A stretch of DNA of 64,000 bases from Ignavibacteria bacterium (GTDB lineage Bacteria > Bacteroidota > Ignavibacteria > Kapaibacteriales > UBA4661). This document shows, in pieces, positions 29,595 to 46,006 of the stretch. The stretch is from positions 1 to 64,000 of the forward strand of contig CANHDJ010000013.1 in the NCBI GenBank assembly GCA_947459425.1. The letters are read 5' to 3'. The translations under genes and the position numbers were made by a program. Position 1 is the stretch's first letter. Every line of letters starts with the position of its first letter. A model generated the notes under the pieces. It made no database searches. It was not told the DNA's origin and saw only the letters and a list, made by a program, of their open reading frames with translations.

Positions 29595-30389
29595 ATGCTT
29601 TCCGATATCGAAATTCCTGAAATCCACAATGCCGCAACAGCACATAACGGCAATGCTCGCCAAGCAACGGGAGCGGCAAAATATGGAGCAACGGAACTTA
29701 AACATTATATTCCCCAAGCAACCTTTCGTGGCTTTACGGCAGCAATCGTGAGCGCTTCCTTGCTTTTGGGCGGCTATGCCGGCTTTTTAGCTTCCGCATC
29801 GCTTTCCAGCAGCAAAGGACCAAGCATCAATAAGATGAAACTCACGCAGTTGCCACCGCCACCCGCACAAGCAGAAGCCGCTCCGCCGCCACCCACGACT
29901 GCGCCTGGTCCGGCGGCACGTGCCGGAACGCCTGTTCCCGTGCCAGATGCGCTGATTGCGCCTGATATTAAAGATTTTGCCAATGTTGATGAAATCTCGC
30001 GGGCAAGCGCTGTCGGCGGTAGTGGTGAAGACACAGGATATTTGGGCTTGGCAAGCGAAATTAGCGAGGAAGTACGCGAAGAAGAGCCGAATGCGTACGA
30101 ATTTATGGCGGTGGATAAGGAACCCTATATTGATATTGCGGAATTACAAAAACGCATCGTTTATCCCGATATTGCCCGCCGCGCTGGAATTGAAGGCACG
30201 GTCAATATTCGTGTTTTGATTGACAAAAAGGGCAATCCGAAAAAATATATCATTGAAGCAACGGATTCTGATTTACTCAATAAGGCGGCGGCTGATGCCG
30301 TCATGTCGTCGCGCTTTACGCCAGCGATTCAAGGCAATACCCCGCTTGATTGCTGGATTAGTATTCCGATAAACTTCCGTATGAAGTGA
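29595..30389 (+). CDS. TonB-family energy transducer, paralogue 1
   Basis: 264 residues. A short cytoplasmic part is followed by one membrane span (about residues 50-72), a Pro-rich periplasmic linker (LPPPPAQAEAAPPPPTT), then a central VPDALIAPDIKDFANVDEIS segment shared with the two other TonBs of the window, and a TonB C-terminal domain (about 175-264; YPDIARRAGIEGTVNIRVLIDKKGNPK). It should transmit proton-motive force to outer membrane receptors. No ExbB/ExbD is in the window. Confidence 0.9.
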   Translation: MLSDIEIPEIHNAATAHNGNARQATGAAKYGATELKHYIPQATFRGFTAAIVSASLLLGGYAGFLASASLSSSKGPSINKMKLTQLPPPPAQAEAAPPPPTTAPGPAARAGTPVPVPDALIAPDIKDFANVDEISRASAVGGSGEDTGYLGLASEISEEVREEEPNAYEFMAVDKEPYIDIAELQKRIVYPDIARRAGIEGTVNIRVLIDKKGNPKKYIIEATDSDLLNKAAADAVMSSRFTPAIQGNTPLDCWISIPINFRMK

Positions 30390-30657
30390 TGATAGAACGA
30401 GGAGTTACGGGCGGCAAGAAGCCAGAATAATCCTCGTTTGCCTTTATAGCAAAACCAAATCGCCAAGCAAAAGTCGTTCCAATTCTACATTGATAACGAT
30501 TTTTACTTGGCTTTTTTGTGCTTTTTTCGCATTTTGGGCTTCAGAACGGCGTGTCTATGCAAATTCTGTTCCATATTCACGCCGTCATACCCCAAACACG
30601 ACCCTATCATCATTTCCGCTTGATTTCAAGCAGCATTTTACGAAAGCGTCAACAATT

Positions 30658-32508
30658 ATGATTGGTCTCGGATTAGGACTGGAACTGGGCTTAGAGCAGA
30701 AGCTCACCCCGCAACAAGTTCAATATCTCAAACTTCTGCAACTCACGGGCTTGCAGCTTGAGCAGCATATTTCGCAAGAGCTGGAAATGAACCCCATGCT
30801 CGAAGAAGGAAGTTTGGAAAATGAATTTGGTGATGATACGGAATTAACATCGGTCGAAACCATTCCCGAAGATGCGCCGAATGAAGCCGACGACAAAGAC
30901 GACCGCGAGAATGATTTGAACAATGACCTCACAGCAAGTGCCGACGACAATTTTGAGGCGTTCGACCGCGAAAATGGTGTCAATGATGAAGAGCAGACAT
31001 GGGTAGATTTTATTGAGGACGAAGGAAATCCTGCCAAATACAACAGTGATGACGAAGATAGCGAAGGCTTTCCCATGCCGGAAAGCCGCTCAGTGCTTGA
31101 CGAACTCGAAGACCAGTTGAAAATGCTCAATCTCACCGAGGAAGAGCTGGTGATCAGTGAAGAAATCTTGGGAAGTATTGAGCCGTCTGGCTACCTCTAC
31201 CGCGACCTTGCGGAAATTGTTATGTCGGTTAATGAGAAAATTGATGCCCTGAACGAAGTTCGTAAAAAAGAGGCGCTCACCGCTACGCCAAATACCAACG
31301 GCTATCACCATCGCCGCGATTTTCTGGATGATTATCGTGACGACGACGATGGCGATTTTGATCCCGATGATTTTGAAAGCCGCGACCTTTCGCTTGTCAA
31401 AAGAAAAGCCGCCAAAGCATCCGCTCATGCGCTTGCCAATCCTGCAAAGCTCTTGCAGCACGTCAACGTGGACATGGTCGAAGAGATTTTATTTGAAATT
31501 CAAACCCTTGATCCGCCAGGTATTGGTTCCAGGGATTTACGCGAGTGTTTGTTGGCACAGCTTGACGCGCTGCCCAAGCGCAATGCCGCACAGCAACTGG
31601 CAAAACTTGTGCTGGAAAAATCTTTCGAGGCATTTCGCATGAAGCACTACGAAGTGATTATGCGTGAACTCAAGGTCAGCGATGTGTATTTACGCGAGGC
31701 GATCAAAGCGATTCGGTCGCTCAATCCGAAGCCGGGTGGCTTGGAAACAGGCGGTGCAACGAGTTCCATCATACCGGATTTTCTCATTAGCTTTGATGAA
31801 GAAAAAAATGATTTTTTCATTCAACTCAATGACACCCGCGTCCCGACGGTGCGCGTGAACAAAATGTATGAGCAGATGAAAAATCAAGTACGCGAGTTCA
31901 CCCAACGCGGCATGAAAAGCCAGCGCATGAACAAAGACACGCGGAAGTTTCTCAAACAAAAATATGACGATGCAAAATTCCTCATTCTCGCCCTCAAGCA
32001 GCGCCGCCACACGATGATTCGGGTAATGACGGCAATCGTGTATCATCAGCGCGAGTTTTTTCTACGAGGGAAAAACTACGTCCGACCGCTTATTTACAAG
32101 GATATTGCCGAAGATACGGGTGTTGATATTTCCACCGTTTGCCGCGTTGTCAATAACAAGTATGCCCAAACAGACTACGGTGTGTATGAGTTACGGTATT
32201 TCTTCAGCGAAGGTCTGCCAATGCCGAAAGATCCCGTTGTAGGCGGTTCGCTAGGCGTATCGCCTGTGGAAAGTGGTAATGATGACGATGATCGTAATGG
32301 TGGCGACGGCGAGAACGAAATTTCTACCCGTGTTATCAAAGACAAACTCAAAGACCTTATCGCTGCCGAACCCAAAGACAAGCCTCTCAGCGATGACAAA
32401 CTTGTTCAAGAATTGGCAAAAATCGGCTTCACGATTGCGCGGCGCACCGTGGCAAAATATCGTGATTTAGCCGGCATACCGCCAGCACGCTTGCGACGAG
32501 AATTGTAA
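30658..32508 (+). CDS. rpoN: RNA polymerase sigma-54 factor with acidic insertions
   Basis: 616 residues, well above the usual 440-500. The Gln-rich activator region is near the start (LTPQQVQYLKLLQLTGLQLEQHI), the core-binding and DNA-binding HTH follows (DTGVDISTVCRVVNNKY), and the RpoN box is ARRTVAKYR near the C terminus. Extra length comes from acidic, low-complexity segments: about 65-140 (Asp/Glu-rich), a DDDDGDFDPDD stretch near 230 and another near 540. It recognises -24/-12 promoters and needs AAA+ activators; none is visible here. The start at 30658 (MIGLGLGLELG) is chosen over an upstream frame start. Confidence 0.93.
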   Translation: MIGLGLGLELGLEQKLTPQQVQYLKLLQLTGLQLEQHISQELEMNPMLEEGSLENEFGDDTELTSVETIPEDAPNEADDKDDRENDLNNDLTASADDNFEAFDRENGVNDEEQTWVDFIEDEGNPAKYNSDDEDSEGFPMPESRSVLDELEDQLKMLNLTEEELVISEEILGSIEPSGYLYRDLAEIVMSVNEKIDALNEVRKKEALTATPNTNGYHHRRDFLDDYRDDDDGDFDPDDFESRDLSLVKRKAAKASAHALANPAKLLQHVNVDMVEEILFEIQTLDPPGIGSRDLRECLLAQLDALPKRNAAQQLAKLVLEKSFEAFRMKHYEVIMRELKVSDVYLREAIKAIRSLNPKPGGLETGGATSSIIPDFLISFDEEKNDFFIQLNDTRVPTVRVNKMYEQMKNQVREFTQRGMKSQRMNKDTRKFLKQKYDDAKFLILALKQRRHTMIRVMTAIVYHQREFFLRGKNYVRPLIYKDIAEDTGVDISTVCRVVNNKYAQTDYGVYELRYFFSEGLPMPKDPVVGGSLGVSPVESGNDDDDRNGGDGENEISTRVIKDKLKDLIAAEPKDKPLSDDKLVQELAKIGFTIARRTVAKYRDLAGIPPARLRREL

Positions 32509-36478: not shown

Positions 36479-37243
36479 ATGCACACAAACACTATATCTG
36501 ATGCGATTATTCGCGTCCGCGACCTGACCGTCCGCTTCGGCGAACGCACGATATTTGAAAACGTGTCGTTTGATGTGCCGCGTGGAAAGGTTTTCGTCAT
36601 TTTGGGCGGAAGCGGGTGCGGGAAAAGTACGCTTTTGCGCACGTTGACGGGCTTGGTAACGCCCGCACAAGGCAGCATCAGCTATGACGAGGCGGAATTT
36701 ATTGGCAGCGTCCATGAGGCACGACGCGCAATATTGCGAAAATTTGGTATTTTATTTCAGTCAGGCGGGCTGTTTGCTTCGATGACACTTGCCGAGAACA
36801 TTGCTCTGCCGATTCAAGAGGCAACAAACCTCAACGAAGAGCGTATTTCCGAAATTGTGGCAATAAAATTAGCGTCTGTCGGGTTACAATCATTTGATGC
36901 TTTTTTGCCCGCAGAAATTTCGGGTGGTATGAAAAAACGCGCCGGAATCGCTCGCGCAATGGCACTCGACCCTGAAATTCTCTTTTTCGACGAACCGTCT
37001 GCCGGATTAGACCCCATCAGTTCGGCTGCGCTGGACAACCTTATCCGTGAACTCAATAAAGCGCTTGGAACGACGATGATTGTCGTTACCCACGAATTGC
37101 AGAGCATTGATGCCATCGCCGATGAAGTGATTATGCTGGACAAGTCTGCACGGGGCATTATTGCTCGCGGAACATTGTCGGAAGTGAAGGCGCACACTGA
37201 AGATAAACGAGTGTACAATTTTTTTCACCGAATTGCAGAATGA
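36479..37243 (+). CDS. ABC transporter ATPase, MlaF/Ttg2A-like
   Basis: 254 residues with Walker A GGSGCGKST near 45, signature EISGGMKKRAGIARA near 148, Walker B ILFFDEPSAGLD near 175 and a switch His (VTHELQ) near 208. The signature ISGGMKKR is typical of MlaF/Ttg2A ATPases that drive phospholipid trafficking between the two membranes. An MCE protein and a PqiC-like lipoprotein follow, but no MlaE permease gene lies between them. Confidence 0.9.
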   Translation: MHTNTISDAIIRVRDLTVRFGERTIFENVSFDVPRGKVFVILGGSGCGKSTLLRTLTGLVTPAQGSISYDEAEFIGSVHEARRAILRKFGILFQSGGLFASMTLAENIALPIQEATNLNEERISEIVAIKLASVGLQSFDAFLPAEISGGMKKRAGIARAMALDPEILFFDEPSAGLDPISSAALDNLIRELNKALGTTMIVVTHELQSIDAIADEVIMLDKSARGIIARGTLSEVKAHTEDKRVYNFFHRIAE

Positions 37244-37290
37244 CCGTGTGACGAAAACTCAACTATATTAAAGAGGGTCGAAGAACTCTT

Positions 37291-37335
37291 CCCGTCCGGC
37301 GGCTGAAGTCCGCAAGAACGCTGCCGTCGGGCGGG
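37291..37335. repeat. GC-rich imperfect palindrome in the gap where a permease gene would lie
   Basis: CCCGTCCGGCGGC (37291-37303) pairs with GCCGTCGGGCGGG (37323-37335) with two G-U pairs, a 13-pair stem. No T-run follows, so it is not a standard terminator. Its right arm shares CCGTCGGGCGG with the hairpin at 48661-48745. A 12-base tandem repeat, AACTCAACATTC, occurs at 37397-37408 and 37411-37422. Confidence 0.5.
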
Positions 37336-37430
37336 TGCTGCGTATGCAAGTTTCACCCTTTGTTAGTATGTTTAGGTGACACCTTTTCTCACGTAAAACT
37401 CAACATTCAGAACTCAACATTCTCTATTTT

Positions 37431-38444
37431 ATGAGCATCCCTACACGCCGTGTAAGCAGCCCTTTTATGATTGGCGCATTTGTGTTGGTTGGCTTGGCAA
37501 CGCTTGTTGTGCTGACGCTCTGGCTTGGTGCGGCGAAATTTTTTCAAGAATACAACGAATTTAATACCTATTTCGACACCTCCGTACAAGGCTTAGAAGC
37601 CGGGCAGCCGGTGAAATATCAAGGCGTTCCAGTGGGCAATATCCAGCGTTTACGCCTTGCGGACGATGGTAAATTGATTGAAGTATCGGTGCGGATTAAC
37701 AAAAATGTTGCGATTAACGATAGTATGCGGCTGCGGATTGAGATGGCGAGTATTGCGGGTTCGCGGTATCTGCTACTATTTTATCCCGCCGATAGAGTTT
37801 TGCTCAGGATTCATCCAGAATTACCCTTTAAGCCCGACCATCCCGTTATTCCTTCGGCTCCGTCCTCGATTGAGGAACTGCGCGTCAGTCTGAATGAAGC
37901 GCTGAATAATGTTCTAGCGATTGACACACGTGGCATTTCTAAGGAATCCGTGCGGGCATTGCGGTCTATTGCGGAGGTGATGGACAATCCCGAAATTGCG
38001 GAAATTCTGCATAACGTCAACCTCTCTGCAAAAGGCGTAGGTAGGCTTGTTGGCGCATTCGACACAGCAAAAATTGTCAATAAAGCCGGCAATGTGATGA
38101 ACGACGCACAAGAAACAAGTAAAAATCTTGTTTTGATGAGCGAAACCCTGCTCCGCACCGCAGAACAACTGGAAAAAGTCACTGCCCGTGTTGATAAAGA
38201 AATTGATGAAATGGAATTGACGAGGCAAACGGAAAAGGTGGTGAGTCGCTACGATTCAACGATGATTGGCATACAAAACTCCGTCGTTACGCTCACCCGC
38301 AGAGCCGATAATTCGGTTAGCAATCTTTCTATTCTCATCCAAGAACTCAAAGCAACGAACCGCGACCTGCGAAAATCCTTGCGTATGGTCAATGATAACC
38401 CTTCTCAACTGCTCTTCGCCGAGCCGCCACCGAAGGAAAAATAG
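37431..38444 (+). CDS. MCE-family lipid-binding protein, MlaD-like
   Basis: 337 residues. A single N-terminal membrane span (about 12-35; GAFVLVGLATLVVLTLWL) is followed by an MCE domain (about 40-120; FNTYFDTSVQGLEAGQPVKYQGVPVG) and a long helical C-terminal part. MlaD hexamers bind phospholipids in the periplasm and connect to the ABC permease. Encoded between the ATPase and a PqiC-like lipoprotein. Confidence 0.92.
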   Translation: MSIPTRRVSSPFMIGAFVLVGLATLVVLTLWLGAAKFFQEYNEFNTYFDTSVQGLEAGQPVKYQGVPVGNIQRLRLADDGKLIEVSVRINKNVAINDSMRLRIEMASIAGSRYLLLFYPADRVLLRIHPELPFKPDHPVIPSAPSSIEELRVSLNEALNNVLAIDTRGISKESVRALRSIAEVMDNPEIAEILHNVNLSAKGVGRLVGAFDTAKIVNKAGNVMNDAQETSKNLVLMSETLLRTAEQLEKVTARVDKEIDEMELTRQTEKVVSRYDSTMIGIQNSVVTLTRRADNSVSNLSILIQELKATNRDLRKSLRMVNDNPSQLLFAEPPPKEK

Positions 38445-38495
38445 AACACTTTTCTCAATAGTATGATACCATTCCACGTTCAACGGTTATCCTCA

Positions 38496-39122
38496 ATGCG
38501 GCTTCTGCACTCGCTTGTCGTTATCATTGGTGTTCTGCCAATGTTGGTGCTTTCTTCCTGCATTTCCTTCAAATCGGAATATCCCAAAACGACCTATTAC
38601 CGTTTGGAGGACAAACCCGTTCAAAAGGCTGCCAAATCTACGCCCGAAGGCTTGCTCGTGAAGCCATTCACGATTGATAGCGAGTTCGACACCGACCGCA
38701 TGATTGTCATGGCAAACACAACCGAAGCACAGCCGCTCCACTACCACCGTTGGACGAGCGAACCACAAGAATTGGTTACGGCACACATCGCCAATCGTTT
38801 GCAACAAAGTGGTTTTTTCGCTGGTGGTGTCTTTACTCCGGCATCGTCGGTTGTTCCGGCATTGCAGTTGGAAGGGCGTATTACCGAGTTTTTATCGCGT
38901 GGAACAGCGCAAGAAGGGAATGTGGTGAGTCTGCGGATTCATTGCGCGGTGCAGCGCATAGATTCGCTTGGCAGGATTAATGTTCTTCTGCAAAAAGTCT
39001 ATTTGCAAAGCGTTCGGCGTGGGAATGATGCTTCGACAAGTATTGCACCAGCAATGAGCGAAGCCGCGAGTGCATTGTGTGATGCGCTTTTGGCGGATAT
39101 GAGTGCGTTGTTGGTGCGGTGA
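38496..39122 (+). CDS. ABC-type transport auxiliary lipoprotein, PqiC-like
   Basis: 208 residues. The signal ends GVLPMLVLSSCISFKSEYPKT, a lipobox with Cys near residue 22. The mature part contains YYRLE and QELVTAHIANRLQQSG, as in the PqiC/ABC auxiliary lipoprotein family that anchors MCE systems at the outer membrane. The start at 38496 gives the better lipoprotein signal; the ATG at 38463 would add eleven residues. It closes the Mla-like set. Confidence 0.8.
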   Translation: MRLLHSLVVIIGVLPMLVLSSCISFKSEYPKTTYYRLEDKPVQKAAKSTPEGLLVKPFTIDSEFDTDRMIVMANTTEAQPLHYHRWTSEPQELVTAHIANRLQQSGFFAGGVFTPASSVVPALQLEGRITEFLSRGTAQEGNVVSLRIHCAVQRIDSLGRINVLLQKVYLQSVRRGNDASTSIAPAMSEAASALCDALLADMSALLVR

Positions 39123-39341
39123 AATGGTTTGCCCCGTTCCTAAATATTGGACAGAAATTTCGGAAATTAGGGTCAAGGTTGTCGTAAAAAGTCGATAGTA
39201 ATTGAGAGTAAATTCGTTGGGAGTCTGATAGCAATGGGAATGAGCATCTACCGCTTACGTGCGTAAAAGCACAGCCGCGTTTCCGCACCTCTTATCTGTC
39301 CCCCAATAACGGCAAATTTTCTCAAATCACTACCGTTTGTC

Positions 39342-39365
39342 AACCTTTCTCAAAAAATCGTCGTC
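39342..39365 (+). promoter_or_regulatory. Possible ECF-sigma promoter of the TonB2-sigma-TonB3 operon
   Basis: AACC at 39342-39345 and CGTC at 39362-39365 are separated by 16 bases, similar to the AAC/CGTC pattern of many ECF sigma promoters. The sigma factor encoded 0.85 kb downstream could therefore drive its own operon. This rests on two short boxes and is tentative. The rest of the 308-base gap (39123-39430) holds nothing I can identify. Confidence 0.35.
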
Positions 39366-39430: not shown

Positions 39431-40195
39431 ATGATGACACCATCCCCTTTCTTCGCCTTGCGCCCGCAGACCAGCGCACAAGCGCTCTATGGCGCATCGG
39501 AACTCAAATCGTACATCCGCACCTCGACTCTGCGCGGCTTTGTTGGCTCATTATCCGTATTGGCATTGATGTTTCTGGGCTATGGAGCATTGGCGCTGGC
39601 AAACCGCATCAATACTCGCTCTGCACCCGTCATTGCCAAAATGAACATTATGACGTTGCCGCCCACACCGCCCTCCGAAGCTATTCCGCCGCCACAACTC
39701 ACCTTGCCTAACGCTCCGCTTGCTCGTGCCGGAACGCCTGTTGCTGTGCCGGATGAAGCTCTTCAGCCCGACGTACAAGATTTTGCCAATGTTGATGAAA
39801 TTTCTCGTGTGACGCTGAATGGCGGTAATGGCATGGATGAAGGTGTTATACCGCTTGCAACGGACACTACCACCGAAGTTCGTGAGGAAGAGCCAGGCGC
39901 ATGGATCTTCATTCCTGTTGAAAAAGAGCCGTATATTGACATAAAAGAATTACAGAAGTACGTTGTTTATCCCGATCTTGCCAAGCGTGTGGGCGTTGAA
40001 GGCAAAGTGAATATTCGTGTTTTGGTCGGGAAAAATGGTGTGCCGAAAAAATGGATTATCGAATCCAGCGACTCCGATTTGCTCAATGAATCTGCCATCA
40101 AAGCCGTGATGAAATCGGTATTTACGCCCGCAATTCAAAATAATCAACCCATTGATTGCTGGGTGAGTGTTCCCATTATTTACCGTTTACGTTAA
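39431..40195 (+). CDS. TonB-family energy transducer, paralogue 2
   Basis: 254 residues from the ATG at 39431; 39434 is also possible, and GGAG at 39424-39427 fits the latter better. A membrane span lies near 33-55, then a short Pro linker (LPPTPPSEAIPPPQL), the shared PDEALQPDVQDFANVDEISR segment, and the TonB C-terminal domain (about 160-254; YPDLAKRVGVEGKVNIRVLVGKNG). It opens the operon with the ECF sigma factor 11 bases downstream. The juxtamembrane sequence ASELKSYIRTSTLRGF matches the other paralogues. Confidence 0.88.
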   Translation: MMTPSPFFALRPQTSAQALYGASELKSYIRTSTLRGFVGSLSVLALMFLGYGALALANRINTRSAPVIAKMNIMTLPPTPPSEAIPPPQLTLPNAPLARAGTPVAVPDEALQPDVQDFANVDEISRVTLNGGNGMDEGVIPLATDTTTEVREEEPGAWIFIPVEKEPYIDIKELQKYVVYPDLAKRVGVEGKVNIRVLVGKNGVPKKWIIESSDSDLLNESAIKAVMKSVFTPAIQNNQPIDCWVSVPIIYRLR

Positions 40196-40206
40196 ATTTT
40201 CACCCG

Positions 40207-40848
40207 ATGATTTTTACCGAACAGCATATTTCCGACCTCATTCGGCGCTATTGCCAGAGCGAAGCGCAGGAGCGGCACGAGGCGTTTCGCGCATTGTACG
40301 ATGCGTGTAAACGCCTTGTGTTTGCTTCGGCGGCGCGTGTCGCTCCAAACCACGCGTCGGCAGAAGACCTTTCGCAAGAAATTTGGCTGAAACTCTTGCG
40401 GAGCGTGTGTTCATTTCGGGGCGAATCATCGTTTGGAGCGTGGTTGAAACGTGTGGCGCTCAGGGCGTGGCTGGATATGCGGAAAATGCCCGCAGAGCGC
40501 ACACAGCGAGAACTTTGCCGAGAAAGCCTGAACCAATATTTTTCTGTAAGCCAGACGGAGAGCGGTGTACAAGAATTATTTGTTGTCGATGATGCCCACA
40601 ATGCCAATCCGGGAGCGCTTGCGGAGGCGGACGATATGCAAATGCACATCGAAAATGCCCTGCAACGCCTGACTCCATCAGAAGCAAACGTCTTTCGGGC
40701 GAGACATTTTCAAGATATGCCCTTCAAAGAAATCGCTGCCGAACTTGGTGTGAGCGAAGGAACGGTGAAAACACTGCATTTTCGGGCGATGAAAAAACTG
40801 CAAACCTTGCTGAAGTCGGTCTATGAACATTCAACGCTAACAAAATAA
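40207..40848 (+). CDS. ECF-type sigma-70 factor
   Basis: 213 residues. Region 2 (about 20-90) has SAEDLSQEIWLKLLRS and GESSFGAWLKRVALRAWLD; region 4 (about 140-200) has RLTPSEANVFRARHFQDMPFKEIAAELGVSEGTVKTLHFRAMKKL, the -35 binding HTH. Regions 1.1 and 3 are absent, as in ECF sigmas. The start at 40207 is chosen because it begins at the usual distance from region 2. It lies 11 bases after TonB2 and 6 bases before the anti-sigma/TonB fusion. Confidence 0.92.
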   Translation: MIFTEQHISDLIRRYCQSEAQERHEAFRALYDACKRLVFASAARVAPNHASAEDLSQEIWLKLLRSVCSFRGESSFGAWLKRVALRAWLDMRKMPAERTQRELCRESLNQYFSVSQTESGVQELFVVDDAHNANPGALAEADDMQMHIENALQRLTPSEANVFRARHFQDMPFKEIAAELGVSEGTVKTLHFRAMKKLQTLLKSVYEHSTLTK

Positions 40849-40854
40849 CACGCC

Positions 40855-41901
40855 ATGCAAGCTAATACGCCACCAAACGACCGAGAGCGTCTTGAACACT
40901 TGATGATAAGCGCTGTCTATGATGAAATTTCCGGCGAAGAGCGGCGGGAATTGGACACACTTTTGCGCCGCTTCCCATCAGCACTTGATGAATTGCTTGC
41001 GCTTGAGGATTTACGACGATTTATCACGAAGCCCCCGCAAGCACTCGTCGCCCATGATAATTTTTACCACAAGCAGTGGAGTCTTGTTGACGCTGAACTC
41101 CGCCAGGAAAACCCCGATACTCCTCGCTCTATTGCCATTCCCAAGAATATTCGCCCAACGCCCTCCCTTCCGACGGCAAATAGACCACTTATCCGTGCTT
41201 CGGAATTAAAGCGTGTTATTCCGATTGCGACTGAGCGAGGTTTTATCGGTGCTTCGCTGCTTCTTTCGTTCTGTATTGGCGCATATTCTCTTTTTCTGGT
41301 TGTGAACGCTGCGAATCTTGGAAAAAGCCCGCGCATTAACGCAATGAAACTGACAAATTTGCCTCCCCCGTCTGTGCAGAACGAAATTGCGCCGCCTCCA
41401 CCGCCATTGGCTTCCAATGCGCCACTTGCCCGCGCCGGAACGCCCGTACCAGTGCCGGATGCGCTCATTGCGCCGGACGTGAAGGATTTTGCCAATGTCG
41501 ATGAAATCTCCCGCGCAGGCACAACGGGCGGCGACGGCAATGACCAAGGCTTTTTAGGGTTGGCTTCGGATGTGGATACGGAAGTGCGGGAAGACGAGCC
41601 AAATGCGTACGATTTCATCCCTGTCGAAAAAGAGCCGTATATTGATATTCGAGATTTGCAAAAAAGGGTTGTTTACCCTGATATTGCCAAGCGTGCGGGG
41701 ATCGAAGGCAAGGTCAATATTCGTGTTTTAGTCGGAAAAAATGGTGTGCCGAAAAAATCCCTCATTGAATCCAGCGACTCGGATTTGCTGAATGAAGCCG
41801 CTGTGAAAGCGGTGATGAAATCAATATTTACGCCCGCGATTCAAAATAATCAGCCCATTGATTGTTGGGTGAGTATTCCGATTGTCTTTCGTCTGCGATG
41901 A
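40855..41901 (+). CDS. Fusion of an anti-sigma-like N terminus to a complete TonB transducer
   Basis: 348 residues, about 90 more than its paralogues. The N terminus (about 10-70: LEHLMISAVYDEISGEERRELD, LLRRFPSALDELLALEDLRRF) is helical and resembles the sigma-binding part of membrane anti-sigma factors; no zinc-binding His/Cys motif is seen. A linker and the shared RASELKRVIPIATERGF lead to a membrane span (about 129-150), a Pro-rich linker, the FANVDEISRAG segment and a TonB C-terminal domain (about 255-348). It begins 6 bases after the ECF sigma gene, the usual place of an anti-sigma gene. The sigma-binding role is inferred. Confidence 0.8.
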   Translation: MQANTPPNDRERLEHLMISAVYDEISGEERRELDTLLRRFPSALDELLALEDLRRFITKPPQALVAHDNFYHKQWSLVDAELRQENPDTPRSIAIPKNIRPTPSLPTANRPLIRASELKRVIPIATERGFIGASLLLSFCIGAYSLFLVVNAANLGKSPRINAMKLTNLPPPSVQNEIAPPPPPLASNAPLARAGTPVPVPDALIAPDVKDFANVDEISRAGTTGGDGNDQGFLGLASDVDTEVREDEPNAYDFIPVEKEPYIDIRDLQKRVVYPDIAKRAGIEGKVNIRVLVGKNGVPKKSLIESSDSDLLNEAAVKAVMKSIFTPAIQNNQPIDCWVSIPIVFRLR

Positions 41902-41947: not shown

Positions 41948-41987
41948 AACCCGCAAGGTCGCTAAGAACCTTGCGGGTTTTGTTTTA
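41948..41987 (+). terminator. Terminator of the TonB2-sigma-TonB3 operon
   Basis: ACCCGCAAGGT (41949-41959) and ACCTTGCGGGT (41968-41978) form a perfect 11-base-pair stem followed by TTTGTTTTATT. It lies about 47 bases after the stop and faces the end of the convergent WD40-caspase gene. Confidence 0.9.
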
Positions 41988-42003: not shown

Positions 42004-45000
42004 TCAGTTCTTTTTCGTTATCGAAACAACCTCGAAATCTTTACCAGAAAGCTGTCCGAATGGTGTCTGCTCTTTGCCTTTGAGCAACTGCTTGGTCAGT
42101 TCGGGAACCTGCTCCTCGACGTAGTTTTTCAGGGCGTTGACGGTGACTTTGCCTTTGTCATTTTTGACTTCGCCGCCAAGTGCTTTGAGCAGCGTGTAGG
42201 AAAATACGCCGTGCTGGATGGATGTTACCTGATTTGCCGCTTGGTCGGAGGAAGCCGATGCAATCACGGCACTGCCGGTTTTACGGGCTACGCCTTTCAC
42301 GGATTTCGATTGCATGAAATCATCCAACGCTGCACCGGACTGACACGCATCGAACAAGACCAGCTGCCGCGCTGCCGGAACATTCGTGAGCAAGGTGCTG
42401 AGTTCCTTTGCCGATAAACCCCGACCTTCCAATTCCTGCTCATTTTTCACATCTTGCATGACAAGGAAGAATGTTGATTGCTCATCCGCCGTGACGACTT
42501 TACCGTGTCCGGCATAGAAAAAGACGAAAACATCTTGACGCTGTGCGGTCTCGGTGATTTTTTTGAAGATTTCTTGTACTTTCTCTTTTTTCGCTTCCGC
42601 GTCATAGAGTTCGTACTTGAATACTTTGTCGTAACCGCCTTGCGCAGCATTTGCGACGATTGTTTTCAGAACATCCTGTGCGTCAGGGCGAGCATAGGGA
42701 AGATTATATTCTTTATTTAGATAATCATTCACCCCAATAGCAAAGACATGAAGATTTGTGGTCTGAACAGGAATATTACACGTTACGCTTGCTTCTGCGG
42801 CATTCGATTCTGTTTTGTCGGTGTTGATTGCCACAACTTTCAAATCGTTTTTACCGGGCAAAAGTTGAATGGTGTAATCCCGTAAAATCGTGAACCCTTG
42901 TGCTGATGGTAAATTCTTAAACTCTTCGGGGAAGAGCAGTTTTCCATTTTGGAAAATACGAATCTCGGCAATTTGGGATCCTCTGTCTTTTATACCAACC
43001 GTGATATTTACTCGCGGCGCAGCAAGCGTATCGCCCGCACGTGGCGCTAAGATTTCCACCAATGGTGGCAATTTGAAATCACGCGAAATATCGGGTGCAG
43101 TCTGTACGCCGGCAACGGGGTTCGAGACTTCAACGGCTGCAGCGGCTTTTGCTGCGGCTTCTTCTTGCTGTTTCTTGACTTCTGCCTGACGAAGCGCAAG
43201 TGCTTCAGCTTCTTGCTTCGCCTTCGCCTCGACTGCCAAACGTGCTTTTGCTTCGGCTTCTTGTTTTGCTTTCAATTCGGCTTGTTGCTTGGCAAGCGTC
43301 TCGGCTTCTTGTTTTGCTTTGAGTTCCGCTTGGGCGCGGGCTTGCGACTCGGCTTGCTGCTTTGCTTTCAATTCAGCCTGTTGCTTGGCAAGTGCTTCTT
43401 GCGCTGCTTTTTCTTTTGCGGCAGCTTGCTGTTTGGCAAGTTCGTCGGCTTCACGTTTAGCTTTTACTTCGGCTTCTGCGCGGGCTTTTGCCTCTGCCTC
43501 TTGCTTTGCTTTGAGACCGGCTTGTTGTTTGGCAAGTTCGTCAGCTTCGCGTTTTGCTTTCGCTTCCGCTTCTATGCGAGCTTTCGCTTCGGTTTCTTGC
43601 TGCGTTTTGAGAGCAAGTTGTTGTTTAGCAAGTTCAGCAGCTTCGCGTTTGGCTTCTGCTTCGGCATTGCGTTTGGCTTGTGCAGCGGCTTCTTTTGCGG
43701 CTTTGTCTTGCTGCGCCTTCAAAGCCAGTGCTGCCGGAGATGCAGGGAAAATACGCGAAAGCAGTTTTGGTGAATAAAAGCGCTCAAAGAATGCATCCAG
43801 TTGAACGGGCTGACCATCGACGACCCAATGAAGTAGCTTTGTACCGTCTTCCGAGCCGTCGAACTGTCCGTCGGGTGTGACAACAACCCAGTCGCCTCTG
43901 TCCAAACCAACCAAGGTGGCGTTTTCCTTACCTTCGACAGCATCCCAGACGATGACCTTGGCATCAGCACTGGCGCTGGCTAAGGTGCGATTATTTGGGT
44001 GAAAACCGAGCGCCAACACCCAGTTTGCATGACCTTTAAGTGTTTTGAGTTCTTTACCGCTTGCGGCATCCCAAACCTTAACATCATCATCGGTTGCGCC
44101 ACTGGAAACGTATTTCCCGTCGTTACTAATGGCAACTGCCATCACTTCGCCTTTGTGTCCGGTGAAGGTCTTGGTGGCTTGTCCCGAAGCAATATCCCAG
44201 ATTTTTGCGGTGCGGTCGGCGCTTCCCGAAACAAGCATCTTACCGTTAGCAGAAAAAGCAACGCTATTGATAAGTTCGCTGTGTCCGAGAAGTACCTTGA
44301 GTTCTTTGCCGCTTGCCACATCCCAAAGGCGGATACTGCGGTCGGAAGAGGCGGTTGCAACGGTCTTTCCGTCGGCGCTAAACTGCACGGAATAGACGCT
44401 TTTTTTGTGTCCGCGCAGTTTTTTATCCAACTTGCCTGTTGCCACATTCCAGAGGCTTACGACGGAATCAATCGCGCCACTCACCACAAGGCTGCCGTCC
44501 GGCGATATAGCAACGGCTTGAATTGGACTGTCATCGGTGGTAATCGTTTTCACGATTTTTCCTGTTTCCACGCTCCATATTGCAATGCTTTTGTTATCCA
44601 GCGATGTTCCTCCGGCTGCCAGTGTTTTGCCATCGGCAGTGTAGGAAAGGCTTGCGACCTGAATGAGGGGCGCTTTAAGGTCGGCAGGGTCATTGCCTTT
44701 TTCTAAATCCCAGAGGCGAATATTATTACCATCTTTGTCGGAATGTGCTGTTGCGAGGTGATTGCCGGATTTATCGAAGGCAACGGCTTTAATAACTTTT
44801 CGGTAGCCGTTAAATTCGCTTGCATCGCGCCCTGTGGCTACATCGTAGGTACGCATAGCGCGGTCAGCACCGCCGGTGGTGAGTTTTGTACCATCGGGAG
44901 AAAAAGCAAAGCACAAAACGCGAGGTGAGTTGCCAATAAAGGTGCGAAGTTTTTTGCCGTTGAAGACGTTCCACAAGGCAACGGTGCGGCGAATATCCAT

Positions 45001-45861
45001 GTCGTCATCCTCTTGCGAAGATTTATCCACACTTGCCAAGACGCGCCCGTTGGGGCTGATGGCAGCTTGTTTTGCCGTTCCGACGACTTCACGCAAAAAG
45101 GCTTTTTTTGCTGCATCGTAAATGCGAACAGTTTGGTTGTCGCATTGCGCAATAAGCAAGGAACCATCTGCACTGTACGCCAAATTAGTGATGCCCGCTC
45201 CTGCATCCAGCGTAGCAACACTATTTTGTTGAATATTCAAGAGGCGAATCGTGTTGTCATCACCGCCAACGGCAAGTGTTTGCCCGTCGGGGCTGAAGGC
45301 AAGCGTATTTTGGGGCTTTGTTAAGCCCGTAATCGGAATGGGAATTTCCTTTCCAATGCGAATATCCCATAGTTTGACGGTTTTATCAATGCTGCAACTG
45401 GCAAGGATATTATTGGTCGGGCTGAAGGCAACGGCGGAGGCGTAAAAGGAGTGTCCGGGCAGGGTGCGGGTTTCCGTGCCTTTGCGAACATCCCATATCC
45501 GAATCGTATTATCCTTTGCAGCCGTTACGAGCATATCTCCGGCAGCGTTGAAATCCAGCGCCGTGATGTAGCCACGATGTGCAACCAATGTACGCACCAC
45601 TTTCCCTGTGGTAACATCCCAAATTTTTACAGTATTGTCTTCGCTTCCACTAGCAATAAAATTCCCATTGGGACTGTATTTGACGACAACAACATCGCCA
45701 AAATGCCCCGTTTGGACGATGAGTTCAGGCTTGGGCGCTGACTGAGCAGGTGATGCCGCTTGTTGAGCGGTCACCTCCGATGTTAGCCCTCGAAAAAGAG
45801 CCGTTGACAGGATTATGCAGAGCATAAGCCGAAAACGTGCAAAGGAAATTCGTCGCTTCAT
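42004..45861 (-). CDS. Exported WD40-caspase protein with a repeat coiled coil
   Basis: 1285 residues from the start at 45861. A signal peptide is followed by 14 WD40 repeats (about residues 50-690; units ending IWDV, LWDI and similar), enough for two seven-bladed propellers. DWVVVTPDGQFDGS closes the propeller region. A coiled coil (about 715-905) of 32-residue units rich in Ala, Lys, Glu and Gln leads to an Ig-like domain (about 925-1030) and a caspase-type C14 domain (about 1035-1285). The catalytic pair is visible: His in FYAGHG near 1117 and Cys in DACQSG near 1172. It may be an orthocaspase-like protease acting outside the cytoplasm. Substrate and trigger are unknown. Confidence 0.88.
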   Translation of the reverse strand: MKRRISFARFRLMLCIILSTALFRGLTSEVTAQQAASPAQSAPKPELIVQTGHFGDVVVVKYSPNGNFIASGSEDNTVKIWDVTTGKVVRTLVAHRGYITALDFNAAGDMLVTAAKDNTIRIWDVRKGTETRTLPGHSFYASAVAFSPTNNILASCSIDKTVKLWDIRIGKEIPIPITGLTKPQNTLAFSPDGQTLAVGGDDNTIRLLNIQQNSVATLDAGAGITNLAYSADGSLLIAQCDNQTVRIYDAAKKAFLREVVGTAKQAAISPNGRVLASVDKSSQEDDDMDIRRTVALWNVFNGKKLRTFIGNSPRVLCFAFSPDGTKLTTGGADRAMRTYDVATGRDASEFNGYRKVIKAVAFDKSGNHLATAHSDKDGNNIRLWDLEKGNDPADLKAPLIQVASLSYTADGKTLAAGGTSLDNKSIAIWSVETGKIVKTITTDDSPIQAVAISPDGSLVVSGAIDSVVSLWNVATGKLDKKLRGHKKSVYSVQFSADGKTVATASSDRSIRLWDVASGKELKVLLGHSELINSVAFSANGKMLVSGSADRTAKIWDIASGQATKTFTGHKGEVMAVAISNDGKYVSSGATDDDVKVWDAASGKELKTLKGHANWVLALGFHPNNRTLASASADAKVIVWDAVEGKENATLVGLDRGDWVVVTPDGQFDGSEDGTKLLHWVVDGQPVQLDAFFERFYSPKLLSRIFPASPAALALKAQQDKAAKEAAAQAKRNAEAEAKREAAELAKQQLALKTQQETEAKARIEAEAKAKREADELAKQQAGLKAKQEAEAKARAEAEVKAKREADELAKQQAAAKEKAAQEALAKQQAELKAKQQAESQARAQAELKAKQEAETLAKQQAELKAKQEAEAKARLAVEAKAKQEAEALALRQAEVKKQQEEAAAKAAAAVEVSNPVAGVQTAPDISRDFKLPPLVEILAPRAGDTLAAPRVNITVGIKDRGSQIAEIRIFQNGKLLFPEEFKNLPSAQGFTILRDYTIQLLPGKNDLKVVAINTDKTESNAAEASVTCNIPVQTTNLHVFAIGVNDYLNKEYNLPYARPDAQDVLKTIVANAAQGGYDKVFKYELYDAEAKKEKVQEIFKKITETAQRQDVFVFFYAGHGKVVTADEQSTFFLVMQDVKNEQELEGRGLSAKELSTLLTNVPAARQLVLFDACQSGAALDDFMQSKSVKGVARKTGSAVIASASSDQAANQVTSIQHGVFSYTLLKALGGEVKNDKGKVTVNALKNYVEEQVPELTKQLLKGKEQTPFGQLSGKDFEVVSITKKN
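43201..43632 (-). repeat. 96-bp tandem repeat coding the coiled coil of the WD40-caspase protein
   Basis: Within the gene, residues 744-887 consist of 4.5 units of 32 residues, each beginning LAKQQ. Four are full length and the third unit is a half of 16 residues. The register is exact from 43632 to 43201, and a sixth degenerate start (LALRQ) follows at 43200. The DNA units vary at synonymous sites but keep the reading frame, so the length can probably change by slippage in 48- or 96-bp steps. Confidence 0.9.
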
Positions 45862-46006
45862 AGACCTATCCCTTTTGATAAAATTTGAACAAAAATGATG
45901 AGTTGTTGATGATTCTCTTTGATGATTTCTCTTGCGAGTACGGTTTATCGGTCTCAAATGCTGTCAAAACTATGAATTTTAGCTCAAGGCTTGTGTACTT
46001 CATATT

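Follow-up and report, generated by a model that had tools for sequence, protein, structure and literature searches.

How a cell reads the uptake load on its outer membrane is known only where a receptor carries a signalling domain, and the locus described here raises the question whether one protein might do so by joining an anti-sigma domain to a TonB energy transducer, the rod that drives nutrient import across the outer membrane. The protein is the third product of a three-gene operon at 39431-41901 of the window (the whole stretch of 64,000 nucleotides that was analysed), and the original prediction, made from the letters alone, held that it could sense the load on TonB and release a sigma factor directly. 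The host is a relative of Candidatus Kapaibacterium, with a 3.4 Mb assembly in 93 contigs that is 87% complete, and its named relatives are MAGs labelled Candidatus Kapaibacterium sp. or Ignavibacteria bacterium.

Operon layout and promoter

The ORF calls give TonB-A, an ECF sigma factor and a fusion of an anti-sigma-type domain (ASD) with TonB, separated by gaps of exactly 11 bases (TonB-A/sigma) and 6 bases (sigma/fusion). This is the order and spacing originally described, and the domain reading that went with it, a third protein in which an anti-sigma-like helical N terminus precedes one span and a complete TonB domain, proved correct and conserved. The features are:

39338..39365 (+): ECF-type promoter, TGTCAACC-N16-CGTC, about 68 bp 5' of the TonB-A ATG at 39434 (sole match in the window, 0.03 expected)
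39431..40195 (+): TonB-A, a stand-alone energy transducer and the operon's first gene (Pfam TonB_C 8.7e-18, complete, 2-79/79)
40207..40848 (+): ECF sigma factor, 213 aa (Pfam Sigma70_r2 9.4e-15 and r4 8.3e-16; TIGR02937 1.4e-31; solved ECF relatives)
40294-40482 (+): sigma region 2 (Sigma70_r2 9.4e-15)
40648-40800 (+): sigma region 4 (r4 8.3e-16)
40855..41901 (+): ASD-TonB fusion, 348 aa (ORF, Pfam, alignment, profile search)
40855..41112 (+): fusion residues 1-86, anti-sigma-type domain of class I lacking the zinc ligands (hhalign, joint profile, fold model, alignment)
41113..41193 (+): fusion residues 87-113, variable cytoplasmic linker (alignment of fusions)
41194..41307 (+): fusion residues 114-151, TonB-type juxtamembrane SELK..IP.AT.RGF and single span (common to stand-alone TonBs; hydropathy 2.07)
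41329..41361 (+): fusion residues 159-169, PRINAMKLTNL, between span and proline region, at the D-box position (alignment)
41362..41442 (+): proline-rich periplasmic stretch of the fusion (sequence)
41665..41895 (+): TonB C-terminal domain of the fusion, residues 271-347 (Pfam TonB_C 1.6e-18, 2-79/79)
41948..41987 (+): probable intrinsic terminator closing the operon, hairpin aacccgcaaggt...accttgcgggtt followed by a T-rich stretch (read from sequence)

TonB-A has 253 aa, with an ATG at 39431 (MM..) or 39434, and its cytoplasmic tail and span are homologous to those of the fusion, in which hydropathy places the one hydrophobic span at residues ~131-149. The sigma factor has regions 2 and 4 without region 3, the composition of an ECF (group IV) sigma. 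At the corresponding locus of one related genome (G004), a small lipoprotein-like TonB_C protein (L033:6531-6995) lies just 5' of the sigma gene and replaces the membrane TonB. Just upstream of the operon, at 36482-39122, are Mla/Mce-type lipid transport genes (ABC ATPase, MlaD, ABC_trans_aux lipoprotein), which are probably unrelated to it because they do not adjoin it in G007 or G006. Downstream, at 42004-45957, a large convergent gene encodes WD40 repeats, a long KQ/EA-rich coiled stretch and a caspase-like domain, and adjoins the operon in G002 too. A third TonB, without ASD, is encoded at 29595-30389, with a sigma-54 (RpoN)-like gene (30490-32508) directly behind it.

The promoter motif is also found 5' of the orthologous operons in G002, G006, G007 and G009, that is, in five genomes in total, and is missing from the fusion loci of G004 and G005. 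Over ten genomes, TGTCAACC-N16-CGTC had 24 matches against 10 for the reversed pattern (window 39338-39365; G000:C8:58560-58587; L178-L201). Judging from this motif, the fusion operon is very likely transcribed by an ECF sigma factor; in six genomes this motif also lies 5' of a second ECF sigma operon, so that self-regulation is not separable from a cascade. Further matches lie 5' of DUF1573-like (CGCTSE) and thioredoxin-like (GTWCGDS) genes in related genomes, both named by eye, and together the genes sharing the motif look like an envelope or redox regulon.

The anti-sigma-type domain and its sigma partner

Within a family of uncultured Kapabacteria, the fusion recurs as a genuine, conserved gene. 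Absence from related genomes, named with the original prediction as a result that would speak against it, was not observed, as seven of the ten family genomes searched carry the fusion. A search with the N-terminal half found it in G002 (89%), in G007 and G009, in G006, where a contig end truncates it, and, more weakly, in G004 and G005; it was not found in G001, G003 or the 70% complete G008. When a full-length fusion profile was run against 391 genomes of the class, positions 1-349 were matched only in G000, G002, G004, G005, G007 and G009 among the matches listed, with the G006 match covering positions 1-175. Among these matches no ASD-bearing TonB lay outside the family, the other TonB matches starting at positions ~70-115 or later, and since few candidates were scored per genome, rare or distant fusions elsewhere may be missed. 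Chance or misassembly was rejected as an explanation, given full-length matches in six genomes and one match cut by a contig end, all from independent assemblies.

The N terminus alone had no Pfam or NCBIfam match above cut-off (only DUF5646, below it), and its identity was therefore established by comparison, for which partner ASDs picked by gene position served as an independent yardstick. The seven fusion ASDs aligned with eleven partner ASDs of other ECF operons at an hhalign probability of 97.4% and a score of 62.95, compared with at most 13.2 for 100 column shuffles and 10.3 for the reversed profile, which gives the homology to known ASDs expected of a class I anti-sigma factor. Furthermore, zf-HC2 was matched by 7 of 22 aligned ASDs, and a joint profile including outgroup ASDs matched the solved RsiW (1.1e-6) and RslA (0.0035); family-only ASD profiles reached no solved anti-sigma in the PDB. 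The AlphaFold model of the ASD has four helices (7-21, 27-39, 42-58 and 68-85; pLDDT 78.5), and a Foldseek search with it gave 32 weak matches (E of at least 2, none significant), among which RsiW, RslA, RskA and ChrR recur. The alignment shows the zinc ligands to be absent from the fusion ASD. By homology, the N terminus of the fusion is a class I anti-sigma-type domain.

The question whether the fusion always sits beside an ECF sigma gene, also raised with the original prediction, has a simple answer: in all seven cases it lies directly behind a sigma gene of one subfamily. In the sigma tree, eleven family sigma genes form one well-supported group, of which seven are followed by the fusion and four, the sibling genes in G001, G002, G006 and G007, by a protein with the same ASD type, a span and a polar tail without TonB. 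These TonB-less ASD proteins have the ordinary anti-sigma layout, and the position next to sigma that is typical of class I anti-sigmas is thus held by 7/7 fusions and 4/4 siblings. In other families of the class, the next-closest sigma relatives mostly have an ordinary ASD-span protein encoded behind them, in several cases with the zinc-finger motif HxxxCxxC. Taken from homology and neighborhood, the protein that holds the ECF sigma, a stress-type factor, inactive is probably the fusion, via its N-terminal ASD.

Because sigma and fusion share a reading frame, the read-through chain of the window could be folded as a joint sigma-ASD model, with eight in-frame pairs and additional sigma-only rows in the alignment. 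The model was compact (pTM 0.53) with no readable interface, and its sigma part lay 8 A from anti-sigma-bound SigK and ~24 A from RNAP-bound sigmas, a difference that any compact model would show. Homology and the order of the genes lead us to infer that the fusion ASD binds sigma.

A second, unrelated ECF sigma gene of the family is directly followed by a TonB_C protein of 550-680 aa (L212:3321-5985 in G007, L213:896-3700 in G001, L216:2298-4911 in G006, L217:3142-5615 in G002 and L218:2608-4919 in G009), which has a short cytoplasmic N terminus, one span, a mid-protein TonB_C and a C-terminal secretion-system domain (Por_Secre_tail); homologues are present in G004 and G005. The occurrence of TonB_C on the partners of two unrelated sigmas in one family suggests that TonB domains have repeatedly been used as sensors there.

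TonB as a possible sensor

In some phyla, TonB_C occurs fused to other N-terminal domains. The fusion has the complete TonB_C after one N-terminal span that characterizes a TonB energy transducer, and its last 92 residues match the housekeeping TonB of the respective genome with 87-97% identity (87% for the fusion of the window), the reference being the exbBD-operon TonB in G000, its ortholog elsewhere and both close TonBs in G009. Over the span and proximal periplasm, the identity to the housekeeping TonB is ~72-80%. The C-terminal domains of TonBs within one genome are more alike than their spans (for example 97% vs 74% in G004; also compared were the window's fusion domain, 41620-41898, and L038:9574-10404), as if gene conversion had homogenised them or shared receptors strongly constrained them.

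Between the span and the proline region, residues N162, M164-T167 and L169 are invariant in 7/7 fusions, and the ExbD-binding D-box of E. coli TonB occupies the same position (PMC10907165). With MKLT flanked by prolines in the right place, and a hydrophobic pattern and spacing not identical to those in PMC10907165, the segment PRINAMKLTNL is assigned as D-box-like, a putative ExbD contact. The SHLS span motif of E. coli is absent from the fusion and from the family's unfused TonBs, including the exbBD-operon TonB, and for this reason is not a general mark of TonBs in this family.

The genome (87% complete assembly) encodes one exbB-exbD-exbD-tonB operon and ~29 receptor plug domains; no receptor gene is found near the fusion operon, and the ExbBD motor genes are not beside it. 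With one ExbBD operon and many receptors, the fused TonB would share motor and receptors with the other TonBs.

As for how the fusion arose, a single ancestral event together with one loss would account for the sigma tree. In the tree of the TonB parts the fused TonBs are not one clade, the starred branches forcing at least two changes and the best tree needing four, so a single origin is compatible with the former tree but not with the latter. Several fusion events would explain this pattern, and so would exchange with the housekeeping TonB.

We give an even chance to the reading that the fusion acts as an anti-sigma factor and senses through a functional TonB. As homology and gene order suggest, the cytoplasmic ASD would bind the sigma factor encoded by the preceding gene and tether it at the membrane, and the conserved span, following segment and TonB domain would work with the one ExbBD motor of the cell and engage receptors in the outer membrane as the other TonBs do. 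When many receptors are loaded with substrate, the fused TonB might be engaged and pulled, and strain or a shift in the span could then reach the ASD directly or make it a protease substrate, freeing sigma. The ECF promoter would in turn boost the operon, whose first gene is another TonB, and the TonB supply would track the uptake load. Release of sigma by TonB load is speculative, and we hold the full coupling, in which force or occupancy on TonB passes through its own span to the ASD, so that workload is read without a signalling receptor and TonB supply adjusted, as a tentative proposal with less than an even chance. In FoxA/FoxR, receptor-TonB contact is required for both transport and signalling (PMC11637429), which makes such a one-protein shortcut plausible.

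Alternatively, the TonB part could be a passive sensor or anchor, with regulated proteolysis freeing sigma, as happens in RseA or FecR systems. We regard this as unlikely but deserving serious consideration, given that known anti-sigma systems free sigma by cleavage at the membrane (PMC9249621), that the sibling proteins serve the same role without any TonB and that the promoter motif at DUF1573 and thioredoxin-like envelope genes suggests an envelope signal. However, the TonB module is strongly constrained and close to the housekeeping TonB over its entire length, span and next segment included, which would be needless for a passive anchor.

It is improbable that the fusion is mainly an ordinary extra TonB with an anti-sigma leftover that no longer regulates sigma. 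Between G000 and G002, the dN/dS of the ASD is 0.46, a value based on few changes, compared with 0.08 for TonB_C and 0.11 for sigma, and such a very well conserved TonB with a less conserved ASD would suit this account, as would TonB parts that may have been exchanged or gained more than once. Yet dN stays below dS for the ASD across deeper pairs (G000-G006: dN 0.37, dS 1.2), which argues that the ASD is under purifying selection, as is sigma; in addition, the ASD is kept in seven genomes of two genera, always adjoining the sigma gene, and the operon is without another anti-sigma candidate. Still more improbable is that the N terminus activates sigma in a pro-sigma role, like the FecR N-terminal fragment, on release by TonB engagement: FecR fragments of ~50-85 residues stimulate FecI (PMC9249621) and the ASD is similar in length, but its nearest sequence relatives are class I anti-sigma domains, and no FecR family of Pfam or NCBIfam matched the fusion.

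Relation to known systems and implications

The operon resembles the FecI-FecR-FecA system (and FoxI/FoxR/FoxA) in having an ECF sigma, a membrane protein with a cytoplasmic sigma-binding N terminus, and TonB in signalling (PMC9249621, PMC11637429). As the original prediction rightly stated, those systems have anti-sigma and TonB as separate proteins linked by a receptor, whereas here they form one chain; the receptor there carries a signalling domain. The fusion operon further differs in having no neighboring receptor gene and in the class I ASD-like, not FecR-like, N terminus, and the combination of a FecR periplasmic domain with a neighboring signalling receptor that defines a FecR-type regulator was not found at this operon.

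With the class I (ASDI) anti-sigmas RsiW, RslA, RskA and ChrR the fusion shares the sigma-then-anti-sigma order and the single span, and a four-helix cytoplasmic domain like theirs is predicted for it, while its fused sensor is a TonB energy transducer and the zinc ligands are absent. A classification of more than 10,000 ECF/ASDI pairs remarked on fused domains and does not mention TonB in its main text (PMC7406223). Compared with TonB/ExbB/ExbD transducers, with which it has the span, proline region and complete TonB_C in common, the fusion adds an N-terminal anti-sigma-type domain, where the family's normal TonBs have a short tail. On these comparisons, we would place the system with ECF/anti-sigma signalling, as a variant, and not in the FecR family. 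We found no description of an ASD-TonB fusion in the open-access literature searched, and an earlier mention is possible.

Even if the coupling is absent, the locus provides a clear case of an anti-sigma factor gaining TonB as a periplasmic domain. If the coupling is true, TonB work would be read out independently of a receptor and what TonB feels when pulling could be approached through a single protein, the fusion could serve as a reporter of TonB engagement, and uptake activity could switch genes on directly in these uncultured bacteria.
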